This document shows, in pieces, positions 5,161 through 64,000 of a stretch of 64,000 nt of DNA. The notes under the pieces were generated by a model that was given only the letters and a program-made list of their open reading frames with translations, made no database searches and was not told where the DNA came from. The position numbers and the translations under genes were made by a program. This stretch comes from Loxodes magnus (Eukaryota > Ciliophora > Karyorelictea > Loxodida > Loxodidae): the NCBI GenBank assembly GCA_946699065.1, contig CAMPDV010001046.1, forward strand, positions 1 through 64,000. Direction: 5' to 3'. Within the stretch, counting starts at the first letter, position 1. Every line of letters starts with the position of its first letter.

Positions 5161-5289
5161 TATTTTTAATCTTTTTTTGGGTTTTTTTCTTTTTTTTAAG
5201 TTTACGGTTTTTTAAAGTTTTATTTTTTTTATTATAATTTTTTCTAGTAATGTGTAATCTGATATTAAAAAAAAAAATCAATTTTTAGC

Positions 5290-6768: not shown

Positions 6769-7010
6769 AAGTTATTAAGTCGTTAATAAGAAGGCCCGTC
6801 AGTCAAACTTTCATACTGCTAGAGAGAGCCCAACGGGGCAAGTTAGGTATGTCTCAACGAAGCTTATCCACTTCTCCCCGTGGTGGATAAACTCCGTTGA
6901 GACATACCTAACTTGCCCCGTTGGGCTCTCTCTAGCAGTATGAAAGTTTGACTGATAGGCCTTCTAATTATAGACTTAATAACTAATTCTTATTTGAACC
7001 CTATTCAAAT
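6746..7010. repeat. Long inverted repeat with 59-bp perfect arms
   Basis: Bases 6801-6859 and 6895-6953 are perfectly complementary over 59 bp, separated by a 35-nt spacer. The spacer can pair further (TTATCCAC with GTGGATAA), leaving a loop of roughly ten bases. The arms continue outward with imperfect pairing to about 6746 and 7010. The perfect arms are much less AT-rich than the surroundings. Such a structure can extrude a cruciform or, if transcribed, form one long hairpin RNA. The reverse transcriptase frame opens in the right outer arm. Confidence 0.9.
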
Positions 7011-8607
7011 ACCTGATTAACTTAAATAAGTAAGAATTCTTTCAATTTACAAGAAAGGATCAAAGAGCGATTGAAAAAATTGAAGACCAATTGAGCTCAT
7101 AAATGTAATTTTAAAAATATATGATAAAGTACTAACTTAAAGACTCTATGGGTATATTTATTAGCGTAAAATTATACATCCCTCTTAATAAGGATTTCTA
7201 AAGAGTAGACAAACAATGCATCATGTCTGAACTTTATAATCAATTATTGATTTACACAAAAGATGGGGGAAATAAAAGCACTTACTTACAACTCTTATAG
7301 ATGTAGAAAAGATGTTTGACACTATTAACAGAAGACTATTTTTTCATCATTTACGCAGAATAAAACTACCTCTTGCCCTAATAAACTGTTTCGAATCATT
7401 TTATCATAATCTAGATATTAGATTCATTTTAGATGGTACTCTTTCAAGAAATTTATAATATAGTAATGGAGTATTGTAAGGAAGTCCCCATGGTCCAGTT
7501 CTAGCTATTATATTCTACGATATTGTTATCAGGTACTTAGAAACTTATTAAAAACGATTTGGCTTTAAAATCTGTGGACGCGTATTTGTTATTAAAGCTT
7601 GGGCAGATGATTTATTATTGATTTCTAATGAAGATAATATGAATCTATTGATTAAAGCAACGTGTAAAGTATTTGGATGAGTAAAACTGAGCATAAATGT
7701 TAGTAAGTGTGAGTTTATATGCTTTAAAGCAAGAAGACATTAATGTTAACATAAGTTTGAATAATTAAGAAATTAAAAGATCTAAGAGGATAACTTATTT
7801 AGGATATACTTTCCATGAAAACGAATATTATAAAGTCCATTGCAAAGAAATAGTGTAAAAATATAAGAAATGAGTTAATGGATCCTTGATATAATTGTCC
7901 AAATATTAGAATATCACTCCTTACAACTTTAAGTAGATTTTTCAAGTTTTTTTACTCCCTAAAACAGAATATGGCTCAGAAGTTATTCCATGGACGATTT
8001 TAAGGGGCATTGGAAAAATAAAGAAAGACATACATACTAGTTAAAGAAAAGTAGCAAGATATGCATTCTAAAGTCCAAATTCAACGTTTAATGAATCATG
8101 CTTTATTGATTTGAACTGACTACCTTTGAGTACTACATAGCAATGAGATATTTAAAGTTTTACGTAAAATAATGATAAGAAACATAAACAAATCCTGACT
8201 CTGATATTACCTTTTTATTTAACAAAACAAAAATAGCTAATCTGAAATATTTTAAAAACTTGGAGAAATTAACTTAACTTTTTGAAATAGATGTATAGAA
8301 TATTGAAGACAGCAAATTATTTTTGAGTAAAGCTTATAACAAAATCTAAGAGAAGTTCTTTTAAGATGCTACAGAAAAGATGAAATCAATGTAAACTGCA
8401 CACTTTTACTTTGAAGATATTAATAAAGAAACAAGATAGTTTCTATTTTATACATATACGAAACTAAATAAATTTATGATTAGAGAAATAATTTCTATTT
8501 ATAAATTTAGAACCTTTTGCTATCATTTCTAATACGACTTATAACAAAGACAATTCAAAATCAAATGCTCTGAGATTTGCATATGTGGAGAATTAGAAAT
8601 TAAAAAT
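7003..8607 (+). pseudogene. Non-LTR (LINE-type) reverse transcriptase, decayed
   Basis: With TAA/TAG as Gln and TGA as Trp, the frame opening near 7003 gives the ordered motifs of non-LTR reverse transcriptases: ILSIYKKGSK, then NWRPIELIN (Trp encoded by TGA), QQGFLKSRQTMHH, LIDVEKMFDTINRR, GVLQGSPHGPVL, the catalytic WADDLLL (usually YADD or FADD) and LSINVSKCEF. The later part has RITYLGYTF, LLPKTEYGSEV, EYYIAMRYLKFY and a cysteine motif CSEICICGE near 8570. It is not in one frame throughout: about two frame changes occur after 7740. The upstream endonuclease expected of most LINEs was not seen, so this is a 5'-truncated copy. The protein would copy element RNA into target DNA. The cysteine motif stops short just before the ATG of the next ORF. 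Confidence 0.8.
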
Positions 8608-9950
8608 ATGGAAGGTCTTAAGAAAGGCTTCTACACCACCTCCTCCAAAGTCTAAAAGGAGGAGAGGAAGCAGGAAGTTCTAAAGACTAAAACCCAAACC
8701 TAGACCCTCTAATAATAACATTCTCCCCAGAAGACCTAAAAATAACTCTAAACAACTCCTCCTAGACAGCCTCAGAAACATAGCCATGCTACTACCTCAA
8801 CGGAAAATCTTCCAAAGAAGCAGAAGATAAGCGACTTTCAGACGCAAATTCGGAACTTCTCACCATATATGGACCTCGGTGAGATAAACAAGGAACAAAT
8901 ACTCGGAATGGCTAAAGAGGAAATGGCTAAATTAATTATAGCGTTAAATAGCCATAACTAAGACCTAGAGAAATAGGTTATGGATCTTGCCCAAGAACAA
9001 CAATGACACCTGGACGACGAGGAGATGCATGCTTCTAGAAACAAAAACTAAGCTTCCATGAATATTCGAATTGACGAATTCGACAGGCAGTTGGAATAGC
9101 TATATGATATGAACGAGAACATGCACGTCAAGTTAGAGAAAATTGAAAACAATATTAACCTTAAAATGGAGAATATCAAGAATGATATCAAGATCTAGAC
9201 AGCACACTCCGTTCCAATGGAGTTGGAAGAGGTCTAGAATAAACAAATCGAATTAACTAAAGAAAGATACTTTAAAAAAAATGCTTTATCTGTGGAAGAA
9301 TAAACATCTCTGAAGGAAATGCAGATAAAGAAAAGAGATCCAAAAGAAAATTTGAAACGAACTAACCTAATTCTACCCAACTAGCAGTGGGAGTATTTAT
9401 AGGAAGAAAAGCAATATTCGGAGCAATCCACTGCGAAGACTTGAAAGTGACTGGAGGAACAGACCACCAAGAGTTCAAGTACCTATCAGTTGGATAGGGA
9501 GTATGAAACTATTAAGAAAACAATCCCTTCTCTGAATAACTTAAATTTAATTAATGTGGATAATTAGATAGCTTTGTTCATATTGAATCATGTGAAGCTC
9601 TGCAAGATCTTATTTAGGAATTTAAAGATTTTAAAAATTACGACCTAATAAAAATGTTAACATCTAATTAAAGTTACCTTACTCTTAATTTCCCTACTTA
9701 AAAACAGCTAAGAGAAATAGATTTTAGAATTAAAAGCTTCCATTAACAATTATTGAAGAGAAGAATTGAAATCCTATAGTGAAATAAGGAAATACTACAG
9801 TGGCGGAACGATTTGGATAAAGTTGTAGCAGTAGAAGGAGAAGAACAATAGCAAAACAAGAAGAAAAAGAACATGAGCAATGAATAAAATAGGAATGATG
9901 AATTAGATGTAAAATAAACAGTTTTGTTATCTATATGAAAATATAGTAAA
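8608..9950 (+). CDS. Coiled-coil ORF of the MxGxKKGF family
   Basis: It starts at ATG 8608 as MEGLKKGFYTTSS, matching the minus-strand ORF at 6367, which supports this start. The order is a Gln/Thr/Pro/Lys-rich segment (about residues 15-75); ISDFQTQIRNFSPYMDLGE; and a long acidic coiled-coil-like stretch, for example FDRQLEQLYDMNENMHVKLE. After an apparent frame change near 9365 comes a better-folded segment (LAVGVFIGRKAIFGAIHCED, then GGTDHQEFKYLSVGQGVW), then IEILQWNKEILQWRND and a Lys-rich tail. In ILQWNKEILQW the first Trp is TGA and the second TGG. Length is about 440 residues. Coiled-coil first ORFs are known in LINEs, so it may be the ORF1 of the element whose reverse transcriptase lies upstream, but no family is recognised. 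Confidence 0.5.
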
Positions 9951-9976
9951 GACATATTAAATGATATTATTATTAT

Positions 9977-10195
9977 TTGAACCCTATTCAAGAAGACTGA
10001 AGCATTTGACTCAAGATTCAAGACTAATTTTTAATAAGAAGATTCCCCATTTGGAGAAGCTGAAGTGACTCTATGGACGAAAAGAATGAAATCAAGCTTT
10101 TGAGAACACTTTTTTAATATTAAATATTAATACTGAAAGAGCTGCGCGCCAGTGAGGAGCTACGTGCTCTATAATCATTTTTATTTATTTATTAT
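9977..10195 (+). repeat. Right inverted repeat of the composite element
   Basis: Inverted counterpart of 6549-6768, starting TTGAACCCTATTCAAGAAG and ending in the end motif GAAAGAGCTGCGCGCCA, then TGCTCTATAATC. The same TTGAACCCTATTCAA sequence also occurs in the outer right arm of the palindrome (near 6994), so pieces of this end have been reused inside the element. Confidence 0.75.
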
Positions 10196-10512
10196 ATAAA
10201 AAATTCTTAAATAGGGTGGAAAGCCCTTTCCTTCAGATGCTGCTTGGAGGCCCAGCAAAGGCAACTAAAAAATAAGCGCGGGCGTAGGATAAATCCGTGG
10301 AAGAGAAACCAATAACAAGAGAAAGAAGATGTGACAAACTGGAAAACTCTGAATGCCAGGAGGAAACTTTCTTCATCATAGGCCGTGGAAATGTACCCGT
10401 AATCGCGTATTGCATCCTATGCTTTGGAAGGAAAAATTACAGGGATGTACTGCAGGAAGAGAAAACAAGGACAGAGAGAAATAAAAAATTTTTTAGACAT
10501 TAGATAAAATTA
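10196..10512 (+). other. GC-richer insert with a short unrecognised ORF
   Basis: This roughly 300-bp stretch is visibly richer in G and C than its flanks and lies between two same-orientation copies of the element-end motif (10135-10190 and 10513-10560). On the plus strand it reads CDKLENSECQEETFF, then VIAYCILCFGRKNYRD, with several cysteines but no recognised zinc-binding spacing. The minus strand is also open over part of it, so strand and coding status are undecided. Base composition and flanking ends suggest a separate small element inserted next to the larger one. Confidence 0.4.
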
Positions 10513-10560
10513 ATTGAAAGAGCTGCGCACCAACGAGAGTGCTACGCGCTCTATAATCCA
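10513..10560 (+). repeat. Third copy of the element-end motif
   Basis: GAAAGAGCTGCGCACCA, then GTGCTACGCGCTCTATAATC, matches the outer ends at 10136-10175 and, inverted, 6560-6602. The two halves (AGAGC...GCGC and GCGCTCT) can pair as an imperfect hairpin, a form common for transposon ends and some small non-autonomous elements. Confidence 0.7.
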
Positions 10561-10679
10561 ATTTATTTATTAACTAATTTTATTTAAATATAGTTTTTAA
10601 CTATTCTTTCTTTAGATTATAAAACTAGTTAAATTCATAATTCTTTTTAATTTATAGAAGCTAAATTACCTGACTACAA

Positions 10680-12110
10680 AAATTACTCTAGTAACTAATT
10701 TTAGAGAGTTAAAATATAAAGAATTATCTGGAAATAAACTAAATAATTGCTTTATATTTTAAGCCTTTTCTCTTAAAAGTTACAGAGCTTATTAAAAGCA
10801 AGCCTCAAATTCTCTCCTTTGATATTTAAACTCTCTAGCATCCATAAATAAGAGAAAAGTATACAAAAATTAAAAGTTTATTTGATAGTAAATATCTGAA
10901 AGTATTGAAATCGTTTGAGGCAATAACTGGAATAAAAGTTTAAATACCAGAAACTTTCAAAAGACAAAACTCAGATTTGCCAAACCTAAAGGAACTTATG
11001 AATAGTGGTAGAAAAGTAAAAAGTTTGGAAAGAGACTAAAGAAGAAACAGTAATGGCTTGCTATTTAGTTAAATAGTGAATCTATTCCTTTAAACTCTTA
11101 TAGGAATTTTTTTTTAATTCTTCAGTTTACTCAGAAGATTATCAAATGTTTCTATATCTATCTTTTAATAACTTATAACAGTATAATATTTAAATTAAGA
11201 AACAAAAAAATTAGTTTCACATTTAAAAAAAAGTTAAATGTAATTAAGCAACTTAAATAAAGAGGCTAAAGATTAATTAAAGACTAAAGCATAATAATAA
11301 ATAGAAGAAGGAGGTTTAAACAAAAAGTTTTAATTTATTAATAATGTTTAAATAATGCTATAGTAACTACTAATTTAGTATATGCTCTAATAATAATTAG
11401 TGAAGCTTATTTATTTCAGTTTAAATTAAAAACAAAAGATACAATTGAACAAAATAGAAAACTGTGAGAATGCCTTTAATCTCTTATTTAATCTTAGTTC
11501 TTCATAAGCTGACTGATAAATGGGTTTAGATTCTCTCAGCCTAGAACTAATGGTTAAAATTAAAATATTAAAGAGATAAAAAATCAGAATTACAAATCAG
11601 AGAGATAAGGATAAAGCTAAACATAAAAAACTACTAGACCCTAAATAAAAAATTTATTCTTCTAGACTTTTTCAAAAATACTGGAAATGATTGAAACTAA
11701 AAGAGTAATAAAATCGATTGAGAGGTTAATGCATAAACTTTGAGAACATCAAAGATATAAAGTACTCAGAAAAAAGCGAGACAAAGCAATTAGATATATA
11801 TTAAAGATAGTTCTTCTATCAAATCTTATTTTTATTCGAGCGAAAGTGAAAAACTTAAGGAGATTCTTTTAGATTTGCTCTATAAAATTTTAAAATGAAT
11901 AGACAATTAAAATAATATTAGCTGCAAAGTATTAAAGTAGTTTTTCTTTTTACTCGGAAAAATATAGAAAAAGTGATTTATGAAAGAAGCAAGAAAAATA
12001 GGGATACAAATTCCAATAAAGCGCAGATATATAAAACTAAACTAGATAATTAATCTAAGTATTACTAAGCAATTTTGTATTTTGATTTTATATGGAAAAA
12101 AATGCAGAAT
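10680..12110 (+). CDS. Possible unrecognised coding region
   Basis: In one frame (codons starting at positions divisible by 3), read with TAA/TAG as Gln, I find protein-like sequence: ILSFDIQTLQHPQIREKYT, LFDSKYLKVLKSFEAITGIK, PETFKRQNSDLPNLKELM, and later YWKWLKLKEQQNRLRG and WKTQGDSFRFALQNFKMN. No TGA occurs in this frame from about 10680 to 11510, while the neighbouring frames contain several. Because all three stop codons may be sense here, ORF length is not evidence by itself, and AT-rich noncoding DNA can look like Lys/Asn/Gln/Ile-rich protein. No domain is recognised, and start and end are unknown. It could instead be a decayed gene or chance. Confidence 0.28.
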
Positions 12111-15100
12111 TTATAAGAAAAAACATAATAAAATCATAGTAAATTTTTTACTAAATCTAAGAAAGCACCAAAAATTAACTTTTATCCTTGCAAAAAAAGA
12201 AGATCTTAAAGAAACTGGTTTTTTAGTGTGAAATTCTTTAATAATATTTACCAATGGAATTAAAAGACATAATGAAAAAGATTGTAGCAGGTAAATTAGC
12301 AATTCTTCAAGTAAATAAAATGTAAATAGATCGCTCAAAAATAAAAGCATCCAGTTTTACTAAGTAATTAAGTTAAAATTAGAGATTTAATTTAAACTTA
12401 AAGAAAGATTATACAATTAAAAGGCTTTTTTAGATAATCTTATTAATGTAACCACTATTTATTTAGAATCTTTAATAATCTTAATTAGTCTGATTATCTT
12501 TAACTAGCATTTCAAATAAATATTCACTTATTATTTTTTAGATTCTAGTAATTTATATTGCTATTATTATATTCATTAATACCTAATAATAATTCCCTTT
12601 TTTGAATTAATAAAACTGCTTAATTCAAGCAAGAATAGTTGTAAAGGAGAGTTTTAATCTTAAAATAAAAGGAAATTGTCTTTTAAAAATTTAAATGAAA
12701 ATGAAATTGACAGACGCCAGAGATACGAAGCCTTTACTAAGAAGTTGATATATCTAAACGAGAAAACTGATAATGCATCAAATTTCCTATTTCTATGATT
12801 ATTTAGATTTGAACAAATAATCTTAAACTTCTTCATTTATTAAAGTATGCTCTTTTAATAATCATTATAGCAAGCGAATAATCTAAAGTCTTTGTAGAAG
12901 AAAAAACAAGTAGTATATAATTTATGATGTTGGTATAAATATTCAAAAATAATGATTTTCAGAAGCTTTCAAAATGCTATTATTTAAATTTAGCAGTATA
13001 GATAATAACCATTAGAGGTAGATTAATATTCAACTTAAAGTTCTACAGCTGAATTAAGATATTTTTATAGGATTTTATCTATAAATCTAAACAAAAAATT
13101 ATATTAGTAGAATTAACGAACGCTCTTTTATATAATTCTATCAATAAATAGTATTTTAATTAGATTTAGTTTTTTTCTACTTGGTAAAATAATAATTGCT
13201 TCTCATTTCTGTCTAGAAGCAATAATAATTCTTTTTATTGATTCATTTTTTTCATCTTTTGATTTTAAGTTCTACAGTCAGTATGAAATATTATCTCTCC
13301 AGTATTTTTAAGAATCATTTAAGAAAATTATTTTTTCTATTCATTCTTTGATGCCAGTAAGTTAAAAGATTTGAAGAGTGTTCTAAGACTATATTTGTTT
13401 CTTTTTGTGAGAATAATGCTTAAGATCTATTTGTTTACTAAAGCATTCTATTGCTTCTCTATATCTTAGAAAGTTTTAAGATTTCTCCTTTACAAGTTTA
13501 GCCTTAAGATTTTCTTTTCAAGGACTTGATTGACTGATTATGTAATCTATCTTATATTTATTCCCTTTAGATTGAACCATCAATGCTAATAGAACTTAAG
13601 TAAATTGTCTTATGTCTGCAAATTAAAGCTCTTAATATTTTTCCTGATACCTCAGAGAAATTCCTTTATTACTAAAATCTTATAGATTTTAGAATTTACT
13701 TAAAAACCTTATTAAAACATGTTTTTTGGTTCTTCAAGCTTTTATAATTTAATAATAAAATTTTTAATTTTTAATTAAAGAGTGAAATTTAAAGAAAAAA
13801 GAGAGGTTTATTCGTTAATGAATAGCTACAACAAATAATTATAATTAAAAGATGAAGAGAAAATTCAAGCTAAAGAAAGAAAAGTAAAAATGGACTAAAG
13901 ATGACTTGATTGAGATATCTAAATTTTAGAAATTTATCATGCGTAATATATTTAAATTTTGGCTAATGAATTAACTAAATTTTCTTAAATTTGCTATTTT
14001 GAATGTTGATGTGGAATCTTAAGCTAGCCTTTTATTACGTAACAAGGGTATTTTGAAGTAATATTTATCACTCAAAACCTCTTCTTTATGACTCGCTCAT
14101 CCTTTGAAAAGCGTAAATTACTATAATATGGTTAAGCAACTATTAAGGCTTTAATTTTCTTTCTAATGCTTATTATTCTAAAATTGACTAAAGAAGATAA
14201 AGAGAAGAAGTTTCCGTAACAATAGGATTAAAAATATTATTGCTAAGGAATTCATTTTTTGCATTTGGTAAATTGTTTCTAGCATATTCTTAAAATTATT
14301 GGCAGAGGAAAATACTTTTAATAAGCTTTATGCTATTCTAAGGGATTTCTCTATTTACAATCAGATCTAAATTAATTGAGTTATTTTATTCAAAGCATCA
14401 TTCAGCAAGTAGAAGTCCAAATACAAATATTATTACATACACTATTGCCAACTTCTTAATCTCAAAGCTCAAGTCAATAAATTTAAGTTGAAATTCGCTT
14501 TTTAGTTCTCTTTTTTTGTTGTTAAAAATTATTTTTATTAAAGAATTCACCGATCATTAGATTCTCCGACTCAACTATTTATTCTTCCTAAGTTTTTAAT
14601 GAAATTCTAGAATTTCAATTAAGTTTAATGTATTCTTATCTTGCTAGCATTGAATATCTTAAGCAATCTCAGTGTTCAATTCTATTATTAATGCTGAATT
14701 ATTCATTTTAAGTTAGCCAGCTTACATTCTTATTGATTTTAATATTTATTCTTACAGTTTATTGAAAAGGCTTACTTGTCTAAGTATTTATATACTCTGC
14801 TAACTCGCTTTCTACTTTATGTATTCTTCTAAGAAGATGAATCAAAGAATATTTGAAAGATTTTTGGCAGACATCTATCAACACTCTAATACCTTTTGTT
14901 AAAAATTTTTTTCTTTTCTTTTAAGCTTCAAGCATCTAAATTTTTTGTCTTTATTCAACTCTCTAAAATAAAAAATTAGTTAAACCTCATAAATTTTTAT
15001 AAATCCATGCCTTAAAATTATTATTAATAATACTCTCAAATCTCCTTGTAAAATACTTACCTATTAGTATTAATTAATAAGAACTTCCTTTCTTTATCCA

Positions 15101-16767
15101 ACTTTATGATGTTTAATCTTTATTTTAATTTTAGGTATTTTTCGGTTTAGTTATCTTAGATATTTTAAATGTAATTATTTTATCAACTTATTCAATCTTT
15201 AGACTTATATTCTGCCAAATATAATTTGCTGAGTTGTCTTAGGAAATTAATTCAAAAGACTTAAAAAAATCAGCTTTAATAATATAACTTCTTTCTATGT
15301 AGGCTAAAAATTTTTATTATACAAACTGCTACGTTTTCTAGTTTTTTTTGTATTAGACAACTAGTGAAAATCTGTTTCTTCCTAAGAAACTTATATCATT
15401 AGGAAAGCTTTAATTTAAAGAATATTCTAGAATAAAGCAATTTCTTGAAATTCAAAGGAGAAGTTTCTTAGCGGAATTGTTACTAATTCTTTTTACGTAG
15501 GATGAAGCTTTTTATGATTACATAATAGAATATAAGACGTTTTAAAAGTAAAAATTTAGCAAATATTAAGGATTTATTTTCATAATTTTTGTAGTTATTT
15601 AATTTTTAAAGCGCATTTTAAAAAAATTTTATACCTTTTAAGAGAGTTTATGAAAGCATGATTAAAAAATCTATTTTAGTACAATCATGCATTTTAAGTT
15701 CTTTATAGTTATTTTCTATGGTTTATTATACATTTTTAGTAAAAGAGCAATATAACTTTTTTATAGATGAATCTACAATTTAATTATTTTTTATGAAGCA
15801 AACAAAATTTTATTTAAATTGGCTCTTAATTCTAAGACTTTAATAGTTATCATTTTATTTTTTTATTAATTCATAAATTTTGGTTATTGGCTATAAGGTT
15901 ATAATTATTTTGTTAAATATTTTTTGTTATAAGTTATTATTTATAAGTTTGTTATCTATTTTATTATTTTGGCCTTTTCTGTTTATATTTCTTTATCTTT
16001 TTAAAAAATTTTTTAAGAGTTATATAATTAATAAATCTTAAATATATATAAAACTTAGAGATCTAAGTTCAAATAATTTTTTTTAGATATAGATTTTTTT
16101 TTGGTTTTTTTTATTGTTAGACTTTAAATTATATAACAAGTTTTTGATTTGGTTTTTTCAAAATATTTTACAATTTATATACGTTTGTAGTTATATATGA
16201 TAAATTTTTTTTTAAATTTTCAATTCATAAAGTTAGCATTATTAATTATACTATTGTGTAAGGTTATTGTAGTTGATATTTTAAGATTTTTAGATTTTTT
16301 TATTTCAATTTTGAAAGTTTAAACAACTCATCTCGTAATTTTTTTTGTTATTATTTTTTTTTAAAAAATTCATATTTTATTGTTTTTATATAGTAGCAAG
16401 CATTAAAAATAATTTACTAAATTTTAGTTTTCTAGTTAAAGTCTAGAACCAATAATTTTTAAAATGGTATATTTATTTAGTTTTATAAAAAAAAATTTAG
16501 TTTGAGATAGATTTTAAAATTTATAGGTGTTAAATGTTAAATTTCTTAGTTATAGTTGTAGTTATTAATTTTTAATTGGATAAAGAAGTTTTTCTCTTTT
16601 TTTGATCTAAAGTTTTTATTAGAGTTTATATCATTTTATTAAGTTAATTCACTCATATTTAATTTAAACAATTACTAAAAATTTCTTAATTTCATTATCG
16701 TTATTAAACAGATTTAATTAGGCTCTCATTCTTAAGTTAAAAAATTTAATTTAATTATAATTTAGAA
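12111..16767. other. Very AT-rich region, no supportable gene
   Basis: The DNA is extremely AT-rich, becoming T-rich on the plus strand after about 15.5 kb. Some frames read as hydrophobic, Lys/Gln/Phe-rich sequence, but TGA appears in them at about the rate expected by chance, and no motif of a known family was found on either strand. No tRNA-like or rRNA-like sequence was seen. The last few hundred bases are the 5' flank of the kinase gene; no promoter motif can be singled out. Confidence 0.5.
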
Positions 16768-18629
16768 ATGGTTTCGACTATTGACTAGGATTATATTATC
16801 TAAGCCTAAAAACTTAAAAAGGTAGAAGAGATAGCGAAAGGTGGTTTTGGAATAGTTTATAAAGGTTTATTGCAAGGTTGTACTGAGGTAGCGATCAAAG
16901 AACTTTATAACTAATCTTTATCAGTAGCGGCTAAGTAGGATCTGGAGCAAGAAATAGCCATTTAGAAAAAAATGCATCATCCAAATATAGTTTCTTTGTA
17001 TGGATATTGCCAGTAGCCTTTATGTTTGGTAATGGAGTATTTACCATAAAACTTATACTAGCTTATACATAACAAATAGGAGATATCTTGGGAAATTCGT
17101 TATAAAATTAGTCTGGAAATTGCAGTAGGGCTTGAGCATATACACGGCAAAAACATTATTCATAGAGATCTTAAGAGTAACAATATCTTATTAGATATTT
17201 AGTTAAGAGCAAAGATTACCGATTTTGGACTATCAAGAGTGAGAACCGAATCCAAATCGATGGAATCATTAAAATAAGTCGCTAACTTTCGTTGGATGGC
17301 TCCTGAGCTGATGTGCTTAAGGCCTAAATACAGCAAATAATCGGATATATTTGCTTTAGGTGTAATTTTATGGGAAATAGCCGCGAGAAAAATCCCATTT
17401 TAAGAATCCGAAGTTCTCTATATTGAGAGAGGTGTTAGTTATTGTGAAAGGGAGGAGATACCTGAAGATTGTCCTCCAGAATATGCACAACTAATTCAAG
17501 GATGTTGGCAATAAAAAGCAGCTGAAAGAATTAGTTTAGAGTAGATACAAAGCACTCTTTAAAACATTTAGTAGCAGCCGAGCCTAAAGAGTCAAAAAAA
17601 AGAAGAAATAAAGCAAGTAATTGACCCCAACGTTCTCTCTCAAATAGGAAACATTCAGAGTCAGCAATTCAAATAAATAAAATTAACGACTGAACCAACA
17701 GCGCAGTATCAAATCAATTATGACCAATCATAAGGTAATATCTTAATATTTTAGACTAAGTATTGAATGGTCATAGGAATTCCGTTAGATCAGTAGCTTT
17801 AACAAGTGACATGAGAACAATTGTCTCTGGAAGTTCTGATAAAACCATAAAGATTTGGGATGTGCAGACTGGAAGCTGTACGAGAACTTTGAAGGGTCAT
17901 GGGAATTCCGTTTGATCATTAGCTTTAACAAGTGACATGAGATCAATTGTCTCTGGAAGTTTGGATAATACCATAAAGATTTGAGATGTGCAGACTGGAA
18001 GCTGTACGAGAACTTTGAAGGGTCATGGGGATTACGTTAGATCAGTAGCTTTAACAAGTGACATGAGATCAATTGTCTCTGGAAGTGCAGATAATACCAT
18101 AAAGATTTGGGATGTGCAGACTGGAAGCTGAACGAGAACTTTGACGGGTCATGGGGATTCCGTTAGATCAGTAGCTTTAACAAGTGACATGAGATCAATT
18201 GTCTCTGGAAGTGGGGATAATACCATAAAGATTTGGGATGTGCAGACTGGAAGCTGTACGAGAACTTTGAAGGGGCATGGGGATTCCGTTAGATCAGTAG
18301 CTTTAACAAGTGACATGAGATCAATTGTCTCTGGAAGTGCAGATAAAACCATAAAGATTTGGTCCTTTTCAACTGGTCAGTTATTTCGAACGCTCAATGG
18401 GCATTCGGGCACTGTTTATTGTATCTGTTTAAGTAACGACATGAACTTTATATTTTCTGGATCTTACGACAAAACGATTAAGATTTGAAATTTTAATACG
18501 GGTGATTGTATATAGACATTGTAAGGACACACGGAAGGAATTTTCGCATTAGCATTGAGTAAGGACAACAAGTGGTTGGTATCTGGTTCTAAAGACACAA
18601 CAATAAGAAAGTGGAAGGTGGCGAATTGA
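16768..18629 (+). CDS. Protein kinase with C-terminal seven-blade WD40 propeller
   Basis: Exons 16768-17734 and 17755-18629 give 613 residues when TAA/TAG = Gln and four internal TGA = Trp. Kinase domain (about residues 20-268): glycine loop [17 protein letters not shown] lysine (44), HRDLKSNN catalytic loop (132-139), DFGLSR (152-157), RWMAPE (175-180) and CWQQKAAERI. It is active-looking and TKL/Raf-like. A Gln-rich linker follows, then seven WD40 repeats spaced exactly 42 residues from 328 ([14 protein letters not shown]) to 613, enough for one closed propeller. Blades 2-5 are nearly identical; 6 and 7 are diverged. Two of the internal TGAs are the Trp of IWD/IWN (17982, 18486). The others are at 17913 (VWSLA) and 18129. 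Termination is at TGA 18627, with another in-frame TGA two codons on. Likely role: Ser/Thr phosphorylation directed by propeller binding to a ligand or partner. Confidence 0.88.
17735..17754 (+). other. 20-nt GT-AG intron in the kinase-WD40 gene
   Basis: The segment begins GTAATATC and ends ATTTTAG. Removing exactly these 20 bases (phase 1) joins the kinase-linker frame to the first WD40 blade. Left in, the reading runs into a TGA within about 35 bases and misses all seven blades. Introns this short with GTA...TAG ends are typical of several ciliate lineages. Confidence 0.8.
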
Positions 18630-18660
18630 GAATTGTGAATTTAACATTTTAAGTTTTACG

Positions 18661-18762
18661 ATTAAAGTATTAAAGTATAAAAGTATTAAAGTATAAAAGT
18701 ATAAAAGTATAAAAGTATTAAAGTATAAAAGTATTAAAGTATTAAAGTATTAAAGTATTATT
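18661..18762 (+). repeat. 8-bp microsatellite downstream of the kinase-WD40 gene
   Basis: About twelve copies of an 8-bp unit alternating TATTAAAG and TATAAAAG, starting some 30 bp after the stop codon. It lies in what would be the 3' UTR or downstream spacer. Confidence 0.9.
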
Positions 18763-19390
18763 GTGGCTATTAAGTTAAAGAAAATTTCTAAGTCTTAGTT
18801 AAAATTAAGTTAATGGCTTTCTAAAATTTTATTTAGTTATTTATTAGGTTAAAATTAATTTAAGTTTAGTTTGTATACTTATAAAAAAAAGAAGTCCACT
18901 TATTTCTGAAATTAATTTAATTAATTTAATTTTTTTAGGAAGTTCTACTTGTAGCAATTAATTGAGTATTATGATTATTAAGTGCTAAAAAAACGGCTAA
19001 CTAAAACGCTAATAACTTTGACTTAGAAAAATTTTAAAGTCATTTTATTTAAAACGTAAAAGGATTTTTTTCAGACTTAAGTTTTAATAAAAATTTTAAA
19101 ACTTACGTTACAATTTAAGATTTTTTTTTGGAATGGACAGTTTAAGTTATTTTCTATTTTTATTTTTTTTTTATTATTTTTTTAATTTTCCCTTAAGTTA
19201 AATATTATAATAATTTTGTTTTTTTCTAGCGATGTGTAATGGATTATCAAAGTAGTTTTGTAATTTTGAGTTTAAATAAATTTTAAGATAGTAAGAAGGG
19301 ATTTCCGATAGTAAAAAGTTTTGAGAAAGTTTCTTTTGATTTTTACTGGCAATAGAAGCCTGAAATTCGCAAAAAGTGCGAAAGCCTTTT

Positions 19391-20060
19391 TTTGCTCAGA
19401 GTTTTACACTATAGGGACGAGCTGGGACGAGCTGGGACGAGCTGGGACGAGCTGGGACGGAACAAACTTAGGGGATTCAGGACGGAAAAAAGTTCAGAAA
19501 GGAATAAAATTCAAGAAAAAGTTAAAAAATAAAAAGAGTATTCAGAAATAATAGATACAAAAAGTTTTGAAAATTTTTGATTTTGGGTTGTGATAATCTC
19601 TTGATTTTTGATCTTATTTGTTCGGAAATTTATTCGAAATAGGAAATGATAATTTTTTTTGATTTTTAGTAATAAATAGAAGGAAAACAAGTAAAGATAA
19701 AGCTCTAAAATGAGAAAATTTTATTTTTGTTTTTTTGCTCAGCTTTTACACTACAAGACTTTTTTCGGACAGGATAAACTTAAAAATTATAGAAAAAAGG
19801 TTTAAAAATAAAAAATTTTTTAATTTAAATGTATTTTCTAAAAAGTTTAAAAGATTTATTAAAAAAAGACTAAAACTGTTAAAGCCGTTTTTTTATTAAG
19901 AGTTTTGCACTACAAATAATTTTATGGACGAAAATAAAATCAAAAAAATGAAAGTTAAAAGAAATGAAAATTTAAAAACTTGTATAAACAGACAGATAAA
20001 AACAAAGACGATAAAAAAACGGAAAAAAAACCTTCTTTGGCAGTGAATTTTACATTAATA
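19391..20060 (+). repeat. Dispersed TTGCTCAG...TTTTACACTA motif copies
   Basis: Near 19391 (TTGCTCAGAGTTTTACACTA), 19734 (TTGCTCAGCTTTTACACTA), 19892 (TTATTAAGAGTTTTGCACTA) and 20038 (GCAGTGAATTTTACATTA), a T-run is followed by a decaying copy of one motif. The first strongly resembles the core GCTCAGAGATTTACACTGG of the 84-bp satellite at 1-5035. These may be isolated, old relatives of that satellite unit. The later copies are weak. Confidence 0.45.
19414..19460 (+). repeat. 10-bp minisatellite GACGAGCTGG
   Basis: About four perfect tandem copies of GACGAGCTGG, unusually GC-rich against the AT-rich spacer, immediately after the first dispersed TTGCTCAG motif copy. Confidence 0.9.
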
Positions 20061-20757: not shown

Positions 20758-35562
<14,805 letters not shown>

Positions 35563-54300: not shown

Positions 54301-57100
54301 ATCGTATCGGGAAGTTATGATAATACGGTGAGACTATGGGACGTCAAGACAGGTACCTGTAAGACTATGAGTGGTCACACTAGTTATGTATTATCTGTGG
54401 CTATATCCAGTGATTCAGAGTTCATCGAATCGGGAAGTTATGATTATACGGTGAGACTATGGGACGTCAAGACAGGTACCTGTAAGACCATGAGTGGTCA
54501 CACTAGTTATGTATCATCTGTGGCTATATCCAGTGATTCAGAGTTCATCGAATCGGGAAGTTATGATTATACGGTGAGACTATGGGACGTCAAGACAGGT
54601 ACCTGTAAGACCATGAGTGGTCACACTAGTTGTGTATATGCTGAGGCTATATCCAGTGATTCAGAGTTCATCGTATCGGGAAGTTATGATTATACGGTGA
54701 GACTATGGGACGTCAAGACAGGTACCTGTAAGACTATGAGTGGTCACACTAGTTATGTATTATCTGTGGCTATATCCAGTGATTCAGAGTTCATCGAATC
54801 GGGAAGTTATGATTATACGGTGAGACTATGGGACGTCAAGACAGGTACCTGTAAGACCATGAGTGGTCACACTAGTTATGTATGATCTGTGGCTATATCC
54901 AGTGATTCAGAGTTCATCGTATCGGGAAGTTATGATTATACGGTGAGACTATGGGACGTCAAGACAGGTACCTGTAAGACCATGAGTGGTCACACTAGTT
55001 ATGTATATGCTGTGGCTATATCCAGTGATTCAGAGTTCATCGAATCGGGAAGTTATGATTATACGGTGAGACTATGGGACGTCAAGACAGGTACCTGTAA
55101 GACCATGAGTGGTCACACTAGTTTTGTATCATCTGTGGCTATATCCAGTGATTCAGAGTTCATCGTATCGGGAAGTGCAGATAAGACGGTGAGACTATGG
55201 GACGTCAAGACAGGTACCTGTAAGACCATGAGTGGTCACACACATTCTGTAAGTTCTGTGGCTATATCCAGTGATTCGGAGTTCATCGAATCGGGAAGTT
55301 ATGATAAGACGTTGAGACAATGGGACGTCAAGACAGGTACCTGTAAGACCATGAGTGGTCACACTAGTTCTGCATTATCAGTGGCTATATCCAGTGATTC
55401 AGAGTTCATCGTATCGGGAAGTTATTATAAGACGGTGAGACTATGGGACGTCAAGACAGGTACCTGTAAGACCATGAGTGGTCACACTAGTTATGTATCA
55501 TCTGTGGCTATATCCAGTGATTCAGAGTTCATCGAATCGGGAAGTTATGATTATACGGTGAGACTATGGGACGTCAAGACAGGTACCTGTAAGACCATGA
55601 GTGGTCACACTAGTTGTGTATATGCTGAGGCTATATCCAGTGATTCAGAGTTCATCGTATCGGGAAGTTATGATTAGACGGTGAGACTATGGGACGTCAA
55701 GACAGGTACCTGTAAGACCATGAGTGGTCACATTAGTTTTGTATCATCTGTGGCTATATCCAGTGATTCAGAGTTCATCGAATCGGGAAGTTATGATTAT
55801 ACGGTGAGACTATGGGACGTCAAGAAAGGTACCTGTAAGACCATGAGTGGTCACACTTATTCTGTAAATGCTCTTGCTATATCCAGTGATTCAGAGTTCA
55901 TCGAATCGGGAAGTTATGATTATACGGTGAGACTATGGGACGTCAAGAAAGGTACCTGTAAGACCATGAGTGGTCACACTTATTCTGTAAATGCTCTTGC
56001 TATATCCAGTGATTCAGAGTTCATCGAATCGGGAAGTTATGATTATACGGTGAGACTATGGGACGTCAAGACAGGTACCTGTAAGACTATGAGTGGTCAC
56101 ACTAGTTATGTATTATCTGTGGCTATATCCAGTGATTCAGAGTTCATCGAATCGGGAAGTTATGATTAGACGGTGAGACTATGGGACGTCAAGACAGGTA
56201 CCTGTAAGACCATGAGTGGTCACACTTATTCTGTAAATGCTCTTGCTATATCCAGTGATTCAGAGTTCATCGTATCGGGAAGTTATGATTATACGGTGAG
56301 ACTATGGGACGTCAAGACAGGTACCTGTAAGACCATGAGTGGTCACACTAGTTATGTATATGCTGTGGCTATATCCAGTGATTCAGAGTTCATCGAATCG
56401 GGAAGTTATGATTATACGGTGAGACTATGGGACGTCAAGACAGGTACCTGTAAGACCATGAGTGGTCACACTTATTCTGTAAATGCTCTTGCTATATCCA
56501 GTGATTCAGAGTTCATCGTATCGGGAAGTTATGATTATACGGTGAGACTATGGGACGTCAAGACAGGTACCTGTAAGACCATGAGTGGTCACACTAGTTA
56601 TGTATATGCTGTGGCTATATCCAGTGATTCAGAGTTCATCGAATCGGGAAGTTATGATTATACGGTGAGACTATGGGACGTCAAGACAGGTACCTGTAAG
56701 ACCATGAGTGGTCACACTAGTTGTGTAAATGCTATGGCTATATCCAGTGATTCAGAGTTCATCGAATCGGGAAGTTATGATTAGACGGTGAGACTATGGG
56801 ACGTCAAGACAGGTACCTGTAAGACCATGAGTGGTCACACTAGTTGTGTATATGCTGAGGCTATATCCAGTGATTCAGAGTTCATCGAATCGGGAAGTGA
56901 TGACTAGACGGTGAGACTATGGGACGTCAAGACAGGTACCTGTAAGACCATGAGTGGTCACACACATTCTGTAAGTTCTGTGACTATATCCAGTGATTAA
57001 GAGTTCATCGTATCGGGAAGTTATGATTATACGGTGAGACTATGGGACGTCAAAACAGGTACCTGTAAGACTATGAGTGGTCACACTAGTTCTGCATTAT
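42694..57100 (+). CDS. WD40-repeat reading frame, segment 4
   Basis: After the third one-base deletion the frame returns to that of segment 1 and stays open (TAA/TAG = Gln, TGA = Trp) for about 14.4 kb, some 117 units. TGA occurs only at the codon after GHTxxV (for example near 48978, 51438 and 54883). In a few units the Trp of LWD is TAA instead (CTATAAGAC, near 45727, 49047 and 52492), which would substitute Gln at a core propeller position. Large blocks are near-identical copies of each other. It ends where the next one-base-deleted unit type appears (GTGACATATCC). Confidence 0.4.
45472..55140 (+). repeat. Higher-order repeat of 27-28 units, three copies
   Basis: Unit order beginning near 45472/45757 recurs near 49078 (offset 3,321 bp = 27 units) and near 52522 (a further 3,444 bp = 28 units). 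The shared landmarks are the unit with TAA in place of the LWD Trp codon, the SLFIVSGSADYT unit and the NVVYA unit. The last two copies are nearly identical over more than 2.6 kb. One difference is MIGH (near 50680) against MSGH. Confidence 0.85.
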
Positions 57101-60100
57101 CAGTGACATATCCAGTGATTCAGAGTTCATCGAATCGGGAAGTTATGATTATACGGTGAGACTATGGGACGTCAAGACAGGTACCTGTAAGACCATGAGT
57201 GGTCACACAGATTCTGTAAGATCTGTGGCTATATCCAGTGATTCAGAGTTCATCGTATCGGGAAGTTATGATTATTCGGTGAGACTATGGGACGTCAAAA
57301 CAGGTACCTGTAAGACCATGAGTGGTCACACTAGTTCTGCATTATCAGTGGCTATATCCAGTGATTCAGAGTTCATCGTATCGGGAAGTTATTATAAGAC
57401 GGTGAGACTATGTGACGTCAAGAAAGGTACCTGTAAGACCATGAGTGGTCACACTAGTTATGTATTATTTGTGGCTATATCCAGTGATTCAGAGTTCATC
57501 GAATCGGGAAGTTATGATTATACGGTGAGACTATGGGACGTCAAGACAGGTACCTGTAAGACCATGAGTGGTCACACTAGTTCTGCATTATCAGTGGCTA
57601 TATCCAGTGATTCAGAGTTCATCGAATCGGGAAGTTATGATTATACGGTGAGACTATGGGACGTCAAGACAGGTACCTGTAAGACCATGAGTGGTCACAC
57701 ACATTCTGTAAGTTCTGTGACTATATCCAGTGATTAAGAGTTCATCGTATCGGGAAGTTATGATTATACGGTGAGACTATGGGACGTCAAGACAGGTACC
57801 TGTAAGACTATGAGTGGTCACACTAGTTCTGCATTATCAGTGACATATCCAGTGATTCAGAGTTCATCGAATCGGGAAGTTATGATTATACGGTGAGACT
57901 ATGGGACGTCAAGACAGGTACCTGTAAGACTATGAGTGGTCACACAGATTTTGTAAGATCTGTGGCTATATCCAGTGATTCAGAGTTCATCGTATCGGGA
58001 AGTTATGATTATTCGGTGAGACTATGGGACGTCAAGACAGGTACCTGTAAGACCATGAGTGGTCACACTAGTTCTGCATTATCAGTGGCTATATCCAGTG
58101 ATTCAGAGTTCATCGTATCGGGAAGTTATTATAAGACGGTGAGACTATGTGACGTCAAGAAAGGTACCTGTAAGACCATGAGTGGTCACACTAGTTATGT
58201 ATCATCTGTGGCTATATCCAGTGATTCAGAGTTCATCGAATCGGGAAGTTATGATTATACGGTGAGACTATGGGACGTCAAGACAGGTACCTGTAAGACC
58301 ATGAGTGGTCACACTAGTTGTGTAAATGCTATGGCTATATCCAGTGATTCAGAGTTCATCGAATCGGGAAGTCATTATTATACGGTGAGACTATGGGACG
58401 TCAAGACAGGTACCTGTAAGACCATGAGTGGTCACACTAGTTCTGCATTATCAGTGGCTATATCCAGTGATTCAGAGTTCATCGTATCGGGAAGTTATGA
58501 TTAGACGTTGAGACTATGGGACTTCAAGACAGGTACCTGTAAGACCATGAGTGGTCACACTAGTTCTGTATAATCTGTGGCTATATCCAGTGATTCAGAG
58601 TTCATCGTATCGGGAAGTTATGATTAGACGGTGAGACTATGGGACGTCAAGACAGGTACCTGTAAGACCATGAGTGGTCACACTAGTTGTGTATATGCTG
58701 AGGCTATATCCAGTGATTCAGAGTTCATCGTATCGGGAAGTTATGATTAGACGGTGAGACTATGGGACGTCAAAACAGGTACCTGTAAGACCATGAGTGG
58801 TCACACTAGTTATGTATATGCTGTGGCTATATCCAGTGATTCAGAGTTCATCGTATCGGGAAGTGCAGATAAAACGGTGAGACTATGGGACGTCAAGACA
58901 GGTACCTGTAAGACCATGAGTGGTCACACTAGTTCTGCATTATCAGTGGCTATATCCAGTGATTCAGAGTTCATCGAATCGGGAAGTTATGATTATACGG
59001 TGAGACTATGGGACGTCAAAACAGGTACCTGTAAGACTATGAGTGGTCACACTAGTTCTGCATTATCAGTGACATATCCAGTGATTCAGAGTTCATCGAA
59101 TCGGGAAGTTATGATTATACGGTGAGACTATGGGACGTCAAGACAGGTACCTGTAAGACCATGAGTGGTCACACTAGTTATGTATATGCTGTGGCTATAT
59201 CCAGTGATTCAGAGTTCATCGAATCGGGAAGTCATGACTAGACGGTGAGACTATGGGACGTCAAGACAGGTACCTGTAAGACCATGAGTGGTCACACACA
59301 TTCTGTAAGTTCTGTGACTATATCCAGTGATTAAGAGTTCATCGTATCGGGAAGTTATAATAAGACGGTGAGACTATGGGACGTCAAAACAGGTACCTGT
59401 AAGACTATGAGTGGTCACACTAGTTCTGCATTATCAGTGACATATCCAGTGATTCAGAGTTCATCGAATCGGGAAGTTATGACTAGACGGTGAGACTATG
59501 GGACGTCAAGACAGGTACCTGTAAGACCATGAGTGGTCACACTAGTTATGTATATGCTGTGGCTATATCCAGTGATTAAGAGTTCATCGTATCGTGAAGT
59601 CATTATTATACGGTGAGACTATGGGACGTCAAGACAGGTACCTGTAAGACCATGAGTGGTCACACTAGTTCTGCATTATCAGTGGCTATATCCAGTGATT
59701 CAGAGTTCATCGTATCGGGAAGTTATGATTAGACGTTGAGACTATGGGACTTCAAGACAGGTACCTGTAAGACCATGAGTGGTCACACTAGTTCTGTATA
59801 ATCTGTGGCTATATCCAGTGATTCAGAGTTCATCGTATCGGGAAGTTATGATTAGACGGTGAGACTATGGGACGTCAAGACAGGTACCTGTAAGACCATG
59901 AGTGGTCACACTAGTTATGTATATGCTGTGGCTATATCCAGTGATTCAGAGTTCATCGTATCGGGAAGTGCAGATAAAACGGTGAGACTATGGGACGTCA
60001 AGACAGGTACCTGTAAGACCATGAGTGGTCACACACATTCTGTAAGTTCTGTGACTATATCCAGTGATTAAGAGTTCATCGAATCGGGAAGTTATGATTA

Positions 60101-63100
60101 TACGGTGAGACTATGGGACGTCAAAACAGGTACCTGTAAGACTATGAGTGGTCACACTAGTTCTGCATTATCAGTGACATATCCAGTGATTCAGAGTTCA
60201 TCGAATCGGGAAGTTATGATTATACGGTGAGACTATGGGACGTCAAGACAGGTACCTGTAAGACCATGAGTGGTCACACTAGTTATGTATGATCTGTGGC
60301 TATATCCAGTGATTCAGAGTTCATCGAATCGGGAAGTTATGACTAGACGGTGAGACTATGGGACGTCAAGACAGGTACCTGTAAGACCATGAGTGGTCAC
60401 ACTAGTTATGTATATGCTGTGGCTATATCCAGTGATTCAGAGTTCATCGAATCGGGAAGTGATGACTAGACGGTGAGACTATGGGACGTCAAGACAGGTA
60501 CCTGTAAGACCATGAGTGGTCACACACATTCTGTAAGTTCTGTGACTATATCCAGTGATTAAGAGTTCATCGTATCGGGAAGTTATAATAAGACGGTGAG
60601 ACTATAAGACGTCAAGACAGGTACCTGTAAGACCATGAGTGGTCACACTAGTTATGTATCATCTGTGGCTATATCCAGTGATTCAGAGTTCATCGAATCG
60701 GGAAGTTATGATTATACGGTGAGACTATGGGACGTCAAGACAGGTACCTGTAAGACTATGAGTGGTCACACTAGTTCTGTATTATCAGTGGCTATATCCA
60801 GTGATTCAGAGTTCATCGTATCGGGAAGTTATAATAAGACGGTGAGACTATGGGACGTCAAAACAGGTACCTGTAAGACTATGGGTGGTCACACTAGTTC
60901 TGCATTATAAGTGACATATCCAGTGATTCAGAGTTCATCGAATCGGGAAGTTATGACTAGACGGTGAGACTATGGGACGTCAAGACAGGTACCTGTAAGA
61001 CCATGAGTGGTCACACTAGTTATGTATATGCTGTGGCTATATCCAGTGATTAAGAGTTCATCGTATCGGGAAGTCATTATTATACGGTGAGACTATGGGA
61101 CGTCAAGACAGGTACCTGTAAGACCATGAGTGGTCACACTAGTTGTGTATATGCTGAGGCTATATCCAGTGATTCAGAGTTCATCGTATCGGGAAGTTAT
61201 GATTATACGGTGAGACTATGGGACGTCAAGACAGGTACCTGTAAGACTATGAGTGGTCACACTAGTTATGTATTATCTGTGGCTATATCCAGTGATTCAG
61301 AGTTCATCGAATCGGGAAGTTATGATTATACGGTGAGACTATGGGACGTCAAGACAGGTACCTGTAAGACCATGAGTGGTCACACTAGTTATGTATGATC
61401 TGTGGCTATATCCAGTGATTCAGAGTTCATCGTATCGGGAAGTTATGATTATACGGTGAGACTATGGGACGTCAAGACAGGTACCTGTAAGACCATGAGT
61501 GGTCACACACATTCTGTAAGTTCTGTGACTATATCCAGTGATTAAGAGTTCATCGTATCGGGAAGTTATAATAAGACGGTGAGACTATGGGACGTCAAAA
61601 CAGGTACCTGTAAGACTATGAGTGGTCACACTAGTTCTGCATTATCAGTGACATATCCAGTGATTCAGAGTTCATCGAATCGGGAAGTTATGACTAGACG
61701 GTGAGACTATGGGACGTCAAGACAGGTACCTGTAAGACCATGAGTGGTCACACTAGTTATGTATATGCTGTGGCTATATCCAGTGATTAAGAGTTCATCG
61801 TATCGGGAAGTCATTATTATACGGTGAGACTATGGGACGTCAAGACAGGTACCTGTAAGACCATGAGTGGTCACACGAGTTCTGCATTATCAGTGGCTAT
61901 ATCCAGTGATTCAGAGTTCATCGTATCGGGAAGTTATAATAAGACGGTGAGACTATGGGACGTCAAAACAGGTACCTGTAAGACTATGAGTGGTCACACT
62001 AGTTCTGCATTATCAGTGACATATCCAGTGATTCAGAGTTCATCGAATCGGGAAGTTATGACTAGACGGTGAGACTATGGGACGTCAAGACAGGTACCTG
62101 TAAGACCATGAGTGGTCACACTAGTTATGTATATGCTGTGGCTATATCCAGTGATTAAGAGTTCATCGTATCGGGAAGTCATTATTATACGGTGAGACTA
62201 TGGGACGTCAAGACAGGTACCTGTAAGACCATGAGTGGTCACACAGATTCTGTAAGATCTGTGGCTATATCCAGTGATTCAGAGTTCATCGTATCGGGAA
62301 GTTATGATTAGACGTTGAGACTATGGGACTTCAAGACAGGTACCTGTAAGACCATGAGTGGTCACACTAGTTCTGTATAATCTGTGGCTATATCCAGTGA
62401 TTCAGAGTTCATCGTATCGGGAAGTTATGATTAGACGGTGAGACTATGGGACGTCAAGACAGGTACCTGTAAGACCATGAGTGGTCACACTAGTTATGTA
62501 TATGCTGTGGCTATATCCAGTGATTCAGAGTTCATCGTATCGGGAAGTGCAGATAAAACGGTGAGACTATGGGACGTCAAGACAGGTACCTGTAAGACCA
62601 TGAGTGGTCACACACATTCTGTAAGTTCTGTGACTATATCCAGTGATTAAGAGTTCATCGAATCGGGAAGTTATGATTATACGGTGAGACTATGGGACGT
62701 CAAAACAGGTACCTGTAAGACTATGAGTGGTCACACTAGTTCTGCATTATCAGTGACATATCCAGTGATTCAGAGTTCATCGAATCGGGAAGTTATGATT
62801 ATACGGTGAGACTATGGGACGTCAAGACAGGTACCTGTAAGACCATGAGTGGTCACACTAGTTCTGTATAATCTGTGGCTATATCCAGTGATTCAGAGTT
62901 CATCGAATCGGGAAGTTATGACTAGACGGTGAGACTATGGGACGTCAAGACAGGTACCTGTAAGACCATGAGTGGTCACACTAGTTATGTATATGCTGTG
63001 GCTATATCCAGTGATTCAGAGTTCATCGAATCGGGAAGTGATGACTAGACGGTGAGACTATGGGACGTCAAGACAGGTACCTGTAAGACCATGAGTGGTC

Positions 63101-64000
63101 ACACACATTCTGTAAGTTCTGTGACTATATCCAGTGATTAAGAGTTCATCGTATCGGGAAGTTATAATAAGACGGTGAGACTATAAGACGTCAAGACAGG
63201 TACCTGTAAGACCATGAGTGGTCACACTAGTTATGTATCATCTGTGGCTATATCCAGTGATTCAGAGTTCATCGAATCGGGAAGTTATGATTATACGGTG
63301 AGACTATGGGACGTCAAGACAGGTACCTGTAAGACTATGAGTGGTCACACTAGTTCTGTATTATCAGTGGCTATATCCAGTGATTCAGAGTTCATCGTAT
63401 CGGGAAGTTATGATTATACGGTGAGACTATGGGACGTCAAGACAGGTACCTGTAAGGCCATGAGTGGTCACACTAGTTATGTATCATCTGTGGCTATATC
63501 CAGTGATTCAGAGTTCATCGAATCGGGAAGTTATGATTATACGGTGAGACTATGGGACGTCAAGACAGGTACCTGTAAGACCATGAGTGGTCACACTAGT
63601 TCTGCATTATCAGTGGCTATATCCAGTGATTCAGAGTTCATCGTATCGGGAAGTTATGATTATACGGTGAGACTATGGGACGTCAAGAAAGGTACCTGTA
63701 AGACCATGAGTGGTCACACTAGTTGTGTATATGCTGAGGCTATATCCAGTGATTCAGAGTTCATCGTATCGGGAAGTTATGATTATACGGTGAGACTATG
63801 GGACGTCAAAACAGGTACCTGTAAGACTATGAGTGGTCACACTAGTTCTGCATTATCAGTGACATATCCAGTGATTCAGAGTTCATCGAATCGGGAAGTT
63901 ATGATTATACGGTGAGACTATGGGACGTCAAGACAGGTACCTGTAAGACCATGAGTGGTCACACTAGTTATGTATGATCTGTGGCTATATCCAGTGATTC
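57101..64000 (+). pseudogene. Frameshift-rich right part of the WD40 array
   Basis: About ten units here carry GTGACATATCC in place of GTGGCTATATCC, a one-base loss plus a substitution, so the blade frame changes every 0.3-1.2 kb (near 57103, 57840, 59070, 59440, 60173, 60910, 61649, 62016, 62756 and 63869). Other changes also concentrate here: GATTAAGAG in place of GATTCAGAG, GTCATTATT, GATGACTAG and a TCG TGA near 59592. The variant units have been amplified as part of longer blocks. No continuous WD40 protein can be read from this part, so it behaves as satellite DNA derived from coding units. Confidence 0.65.
59859..64000 (+). repeat. Higher-order repeat with 2,579-bp period in the frameshift-rich zone
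   Basis: Sequences near 59859 and 60635 recur near 62438 and 63214, an offset of 2,579 bp: 21 units minus four deleted bases. The frameshifted unit type is therefore multiplied by block duplication rather than by independent mutation. The second copy runs toward the window edge. Confidence 0.75.

Follow-up and report, generated by a model that had tools for sequence, protein, structure and literature searches.

In this work we have analysed a window of 64,000 nucleotides of AT-rich DNA (GC 22–44% per 2-kb block). It opens with a satellite, an 84-bp tandem array of about 60 copies (positions 1–5033), followed on the forward strand by a fragment of a non-LTR retrotransposon (6970–7740), by a gene that joins a protein kinase to WD40 repeats (16768–18629), and by an array of about 352 copies of a 123-bp (41-aa) WD40 repeat, which begins at 20755 and runs past the end of the window at 64000. 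The satellite abuts a decayed WD40 unit of 126 bp (about 5035–5160); in translation, the degenerate relic of this unit covers 5035–5170 on the forward strand and carries a TGA at its VxS slot. By eye, the GCTCAG...TTTACACT motif of the satellite was also recognized in short copies at about 19394 and 19737, within the spacer that follows the kinase gene. No tRNA genes were found anywhere in the window, and an Rfam scan of 5034–21000 gave no matches. Pfam searches in one frame each found no family in 7721–8608, 8609–9976, 5078–6400 (minus strand), 10674–12200 or 14010–15400; none was found in 8608–9559 or 7742–8530 either, and 9561–9936 gave one match, under its cut-off.

The surroundings of the retrotransposon fragment are unusual. 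Together with the next ORF (6546–10190) it is flanked by inverted repeats, which is surprising for a non-LTR element; each side measures about 220 bp, and the arms pair 6546–6626 with 10110–10190 (83%) and 6642–6765 with 9973–10096 (81%). A palindrome with 115-nt arms, 89% complementary and separated by an 11-nt spacer, lies just before the reverse transcriptase (RT) at 6757–6997. In searches of viral contigs, two DNA patterns gave no matches each and the RT protein pattern gave five, none of them a relative.

The kinase–WD40 gene

The first exon (16768–17734, forward strand) starts with an ATG and encodes a protein kinase domain of the TKL or Tyr-kinase-like type. With TAA and TAG (TAR) read as Gln, the full kinase domain scores 195.5 bits with PF07714 and 182.2 bits with PF00069, and the best 60 of its 433 PDB sequence matches are eukaryotic TKL and Tyr kinases. 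As originally predicted, 21 in-frame TAA/TAG codons (11 TAA and 10 TAG) lie in this exon at places compatible with Gln. Since 19.8 ± 3.6 are expected from the codon-position composition of the exon itself, these codons are freely used, and not avoided, in an intact kinase. When all 20 residues were tried with both codons read alike, Gln was the best-scoring one (PF07714: Q 195.5, K 194.1 and E 192.8 bits, with a minimum of 172.0 for W), and the top three residues were identical with PF00069. Codes in which TAA and TAG differ were also tried, ten in the kinase and four in the RT, where six other joint readings were scored as well. Reading TAA as Lys and TAG as Gln places the kinase 0.5–0.6 bits above Gln/Gln and the RT at 83.1 bits, 7.1 below it. 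Reading TAG as Lys or as Glu places the kinase 1.9 and 1.7 bits under Gln, and TAG as Glu places the RT 0.1 bits above it. With both codons as Gln the RT reaches 90.2 bits, versus 80.7–87.0 for the six other joint readings, and the sum over kinase and RT, 285.7 bits for Gln/Gln, is the best among the combinations scored in both domains.

These scores bear on other codes in which all three stop codons are sense, such as those of Amoebophrya sp. ex K. veneficum (Gln/Gln/Trp) and Blastocrithidia (UAR = Glu, UGA = Trp). All three stop codons are reported to occur in frame in both organisms, as is the case in this window. However, Glu falls 2.7 bits under Gln in the kinase and 9.5 bits under it in the RT, so UAR is not best read as Glu, and the 20-nt intron and the retrotransposon and satellite content match Loxodes; we regard a code of either kind as hardly credible here.

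The situation of TGA in the first exon is different. Its four Trp codons are all TGG, as the original prediction had conceded, and in-frame TGA is absent, versus 4.3 expected; zero was reached in 0.55% of 2000 shuffles. TGA is thus avoided in this exon, which counts against a sense TGA and in favour of a rival explanation, NCBI table 6, in which UAA and UAG are Gln and UGA is only a stop. The kinase would then end at 17764 if unspliced, or at 17913, and the WD40 frame downstream, the RT and the array would be decaying sequences with TGA as a nonsense mutation.

From the sequence and frame arithmetic, we predict a 20-nt GT...AG intron of 15% GC at 17735–17754 (forward strand), whose removal would bring the kinase and the WD40 repeats into one frame (...DQSQ-DQVLNGH...). 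Introns of Loxodes magnus have a mean of 19.3 bp, with a mode of 17 bp, whereas about 95% of heterotrich introns are 15 bp long and the remainder 16 bp (PMC11441545, excerpt). The second exon (17755–18626, forward strand) is 872 nt long and holds a single frame through seven whole WD40 blades and four in-frame TGAs. With TGA as Trp, PF00400 scores 260.0 bits over seven stretches (region searched, 17745–18650). An AlphaFold2 single-sequence model with the four TGAs read has a pLDDT of 91.9 and 28 strands, which we read as seven blades of four in a predicted seven-bladed propeller; its top-ranked PDB fold is 5yzv_B, the PkwA WD40 domain (TM 0.94/0.96). Provided that the frame is translated, such an exon speaks against table 6, under which stopping at the first TGA would cut a complete propeller and leave little more than one blade. 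By composition, the exon has 4 TGA versus 5.3 expected and 3 TAR versus 9.1 expected.

Where do the four TGAs fall? Two of them lie on the Trp expected in a blade, as had been claimed, and both of these are invariant Trp codons: 17982–17984, the Trp of IWD, which is TGG in four sibling repeats, and 18486–18488, the Trp of IWN in blade 6. The TGA at 17913–17915 occupies the VxS slot, repeat codon 7, a variable position that is AGA (Arg) in four sibling repeats, and the one at 18129–18131 takes the place of a Cys codon (TGT in siblings 1, 2 and 4), a misfit to a Trp slot that also accords with table 6. The only changes among the seven blade-end Trp codons are from TGG to TGA (2/7), a pattern that table 6 does not account for. 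Placing two or more of the four TGAs on invariant Trp codons has P = 0.073 in a simple draw from 64 codons (TGA or one step from TGA), 8 of which are Trp sites. Site placement gives moderate support for TGA as Trp; the better evidence comes from the RVT_1 and PF00400 scans given below and from the completeness of the propeller.

The presumed true stop of the gene is the TGA at 18627–18629 (forward strand), after the seventh blade, and the second in-frame TGA noticed earlier is indeed found at 18636. Between the TAA at 18522 and the TGA at 18627 of this single gene there are 34 codons without TAA, TAG or TGA, and GC falls from 36.5% in the CDS to 16.7% in the 60 nt after the stop. In Loxodes magnus, GC is 33.5% in the CDS and 18.6% in the 3΄UTR, and UGA and UAA are depleted over about 20 codons ahead of the stop (PMC11441545, excerpt). 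Codon depletion before the stop, a feature of table 27, is therefore present at one gene end. This end, TGA 18627, is the one gene end observed, and a UAA or UAG stop was not seen there. It bears on a Condylostoma-type code (table 28), in which UAA and UAG are context-dependent stops as well and which would place the window in a heterotrich. The sense meanings are identical to those proposed here, and a single gene end is compatible with UAA/UAG stops elsewhere; yet that end is a TGA, and the one predicted intron is of 20 nt, versus the 15–16 bp of heterotrichs, which makes table 28 very unlikely in our view.

TGA in the retrotransposon fragment and the repeat array

All 20 residues were tried for TGA in the RT and in the WD40 exon. 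Trp was the best of the 20 in two unrelated models, a result that table 6 leaves without explanation: RVT_1 (PF00078) gave W 90.2, Y 88.4 and K 88.1 bits, with a minimum of 83.4 for G, and PF00400 gave W 260.0, Y 258.3 and F 254.8 bits, with the remaining 17 residues at 250.9 or less. The margin of Trp over Tyr is just 1.7–1.8 bits in each. With PF25175, Trp (233.6 bits) was top among the residues listed, followed by Tyr (232.5). Trp is not the preferred residue in four whole-propeller models, which again accords with table 6. PF25173 gave 332.7 bits for Trp, with 8 of the 19 others higher (Leu 357.4); PF24814 gave 268.2 versus 284.2 for Glu, and PF25174 239.8 versus 322.2 for Phe; with PF25172, Trp was absent at the cut-off used and Gly reached 292.3. 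We give these models little weight because, on near-identical repeats, their scores change erratically from residue to residue (by as much as about 106 bits in PF25173), but they are still results against Trp.

The RVT_1 domain of the retrotransposon fragment (6970–7740, forward strand) scores 90.2 bits and has R2 and LINE-1 RT matches. Its in-frame TGAs are at 7072, 7081, 7228 and 7678. The second of them had been assigned to the Trp of the NWRPI motif, and it does face Trp in the alignment with the R2 retrotransposon RT; it is the only one of the three alignable TGAs to do so by eye, 7072 facing Ile and 7228 Lys, and 7678 lies outside the R2 alignment. The RT frame breaks near 7740 (by eye), so this copy is already a pseudogene, as table 6 would have it. 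Further downstream, a tandem pair of ILQW motifs (9771–9806, forward strand) reads ATC CTA TAG TGA and then ATA CTA CAG TGG, so that Gln as TAG stands beside Gln as CAG and Trp as TGA beside Trp as TGG. The two copies are synonymous under table 27, a fact that goes against table 6. The pair is real, although it lies in a different frame (offset 2) from the ORF at 8608 to which it had been attributed.

The 123-bp array (20755–64000, forward strand) has 352 anchors that define 351 units, of which 338 are 123 bp long and 13 are 122 bp long. About seventeen units had been reported to carry TGA at a WD40 slot often filled by Trp. The total is 18 of the 338 full-length units, with 16 at the VxS slot (codon 7); the other two lie at a Gly slot (codon 21), so that the earlier remark that some TGAs replace Cys or Gly holds for these two units as it does for the Cys slot of the WD40 exon, and the Gly slots, too, suit table 6. 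Codon 7 is the most variable of the array, with S, N, L, Y, W, R and Q among 128 distinct units, whereas the conserved Trp codon 30 is TGG in 325 of the 338 units, TAA in 7, TGT in 5, TAG in 1 and TGA in none. Given this pattern of diversity, we see in a TGA at codon 7 another variant of a variable position and not proof of a conserved Trp, and we rejected the array as strong proof that TGA is Trp. Weaker lines of support are the array TGAs, which lie at the most variable codon of an array whose frame is partly broken, and, except for that at 7081, the TGAs of the RT.

The 13 short units carry 1-base deletions, at 35557, 39615 and 42689 and at ten places from 57079 to 63835. They represent two deletion lineages, of 3 and 10 copies, which indicates that broken units were copied; they appear to have spread by duplication. 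Jointly, the deletions at 35557, 39615 and 42689 restore the frame after 42689. Deletions of 1 bp in 13 of 351 units are also what table 6 would lead one to expect of a decaying array. Weighing the two sides, we consider table 6 an unlikely explanation of the window.

The genetic code of the window

We propose that UAA and UAG stand for Gln, and UGA for Trp inside genes and for a stop at the gene end; this is the best reading of the kinase–WD40 gene and the RT piece, and it is supported because TAR fits Gln, because in two unrelated models Trp is the best fit to TGA (by a small margin), because read-through yields a whole propeller, and because a run free of TAR and TGA precedes the last TGA. 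The inference that a context-dependent code similar to those of Condylostoma and Parduczia operates here is thus supported, and the code matches NCBI table 27, in which UAA and UAG are Gln and UGA is Trp or stop in karyorelicts, including Parduczia and Loxodes magnus (PMC4967479 and PMC11441545, excerpts). It coincides with a published code and hence is already known, not new. The window most likely originates from a karyorelict ciliate, and we consider it highly probable that it is nuclear DNA of a Loxodes-like karyorelict using this ambiguous code. In the work on Loxodes magnus, about 2,700 RVT_1 copies are reported, and tandem repeats amount to 231 and 359 Mb in the two assemblies (PMC11441545, excerpt); the 20-nt intron, the RT element and the satellites of the window are consistent with Loxodes, though none is species-diagnostic. 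Against this reading stands a 2019 survey that scored Loxodes and other karyorelicts as UAR = Gln and UGA = stop (PMC6935857, excerpt).

How might UGA be read in two ways? UAA and UAG would be decoded as Gln throughout, and UGA would mean Trp deep within the message and stop close to the poly(A) tail; that distance from poly(A) plays a role is taken from the literature. The kinase–WD40 gene would use UGA both ways, four internal ones being read and the fifth, after blade seven, ending the protein. Translation, the splice, the tRNA used and the species are all inferred steps in this scheme. Looking for a UCA-anticodon tRNA could fail to reveal the decoder: in Condylostoma, reportedly none was detected for Trp (PMC4967479, excerpt), and UGA is reported to be read by a CCA tRNA whose anticodon stem is 4 bp long (PMC13092985 and PMC12005148, excerpts). 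As the code is published, what the window contributes is a worked example in which one gene apparently uses UGA four times as sense and once as stop. If proteomics agreed, the repeat units would be a good natural test of whether position, and not sequence, decides the meaning of UGA.

Diversity of the WD40 repeats and comparison with known systems

The part of this work worth a second look is the HET-like diversity in the kinase–WD40 gene and the satellite array of a presumed ciliate. In the HET-D/E family of Podospora, strong positive selection acts on repeat codons 7, 9, 25 and 27, and the selected codon pairs each flank a conserved residue (PMC1805685, excerpt). Mapped by the GH motif and spacing, they correspond to codons 5, 7, 23 and 25 here, which flank V6 and D24. 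For the diversity counts of the array, the 13 short units and duplicates of identical units were dropped, which reduces the 338 units to 128 distinct ones; these share ancestry, so the counts are non-independent. The four codons are among the five most variable in the 128 distinct units (codon 23 is eighth with all 338), and in the WD40 frame pN/pS is 2.95 at them versus 0.73 at the other 37, with P = 2e-5 in a permutation of their mean pN. A fraction of 0.515 of the nonsynonymous differences sits at these four of 41 codons. With all codons counted, pN/pS is 1.24 for the WD40 frame versus 1.21 and 1.01 for the two alternative frames, a similarity by which the overall ratio gives no sign of coding. 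A non-coding satellite, first suggested by the segregating sites per codon position (21/18/17), was set aside, as the site-by-site contrast in the WD40 frame speaks for a coding past of the array. Similarly, in the kinase gene 8 of the first 30 positions vary among its five sibling repeats, including all four at codons 5, 7, 23 and 25. Variation thus peaks at the codons selected in HET-D/E in both 17769–18398 and 20755–64000.

By analogy, and tentatively, the kinase–WD40 gene may be part of a ciliate system of non-self or ligand recognition, with near-identical repeats diversified at the four surface codons of HET-D/E. The 43-kb array could then serve as a reservoir of paralogous units or be a giant family member, and Trp at the selected codon 7 could come from sense UGA. 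If borne out, this pattern would matter more than the code, since it would suggest repeat-based recognition of the fungal kind in a ciliate. Our literature search, a narrow one, found no paper pairing Loxodes with WD40 and no published account of an HIC-type pattern in ciliates, and NACHT was absent from the Pfam families listed for exons 1 and 2 (for exon 2, 25 of 57).

Compared with known systems, the window resembles the karyorelict code of table 27 in having UAA/UAG as Gln, UGA as Trp or stop, a UGA stop after a depleted run, a very short intron and AT-rich sequence past the stop. A TGA density of 0.120% is quoted for Parduczia (PMC4967479, excerpt), whereas the 4 of 294 codons in the WD40 exon are a higher share, in one repetitive exon of a gene whose exon 1 has none. 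Condylostoma magnum (table 28) likewise gives sense meanings to all three codons and uses context-dependent stops; unlike in that ciliate, UAA/UAG stops are not seen here and the predicted intron is of 20 nt, not 15–16. The bacterial PkwA is named a probable Ser/Thr kinase and also has a WD40 domain (that of PDB 5yzv), to which the fold compares with a TM of 0.94, but the kinase here best matches eukaryotic TKL and Tyr kinases among its best 60 of 433 PDB matches. Finally, the HIC WD40 repeats of the fungal NLRs HET-D and HET-E (PMC1805685, excerpt) are likewise near-identical tandem repeats with variation at the same four codons. In contrast to them, the repeats of this presumed ciliate are joined directly to a kinase in place of HET-NACHT, the array contains frame-breaking deletions, and a recognition function is putative.
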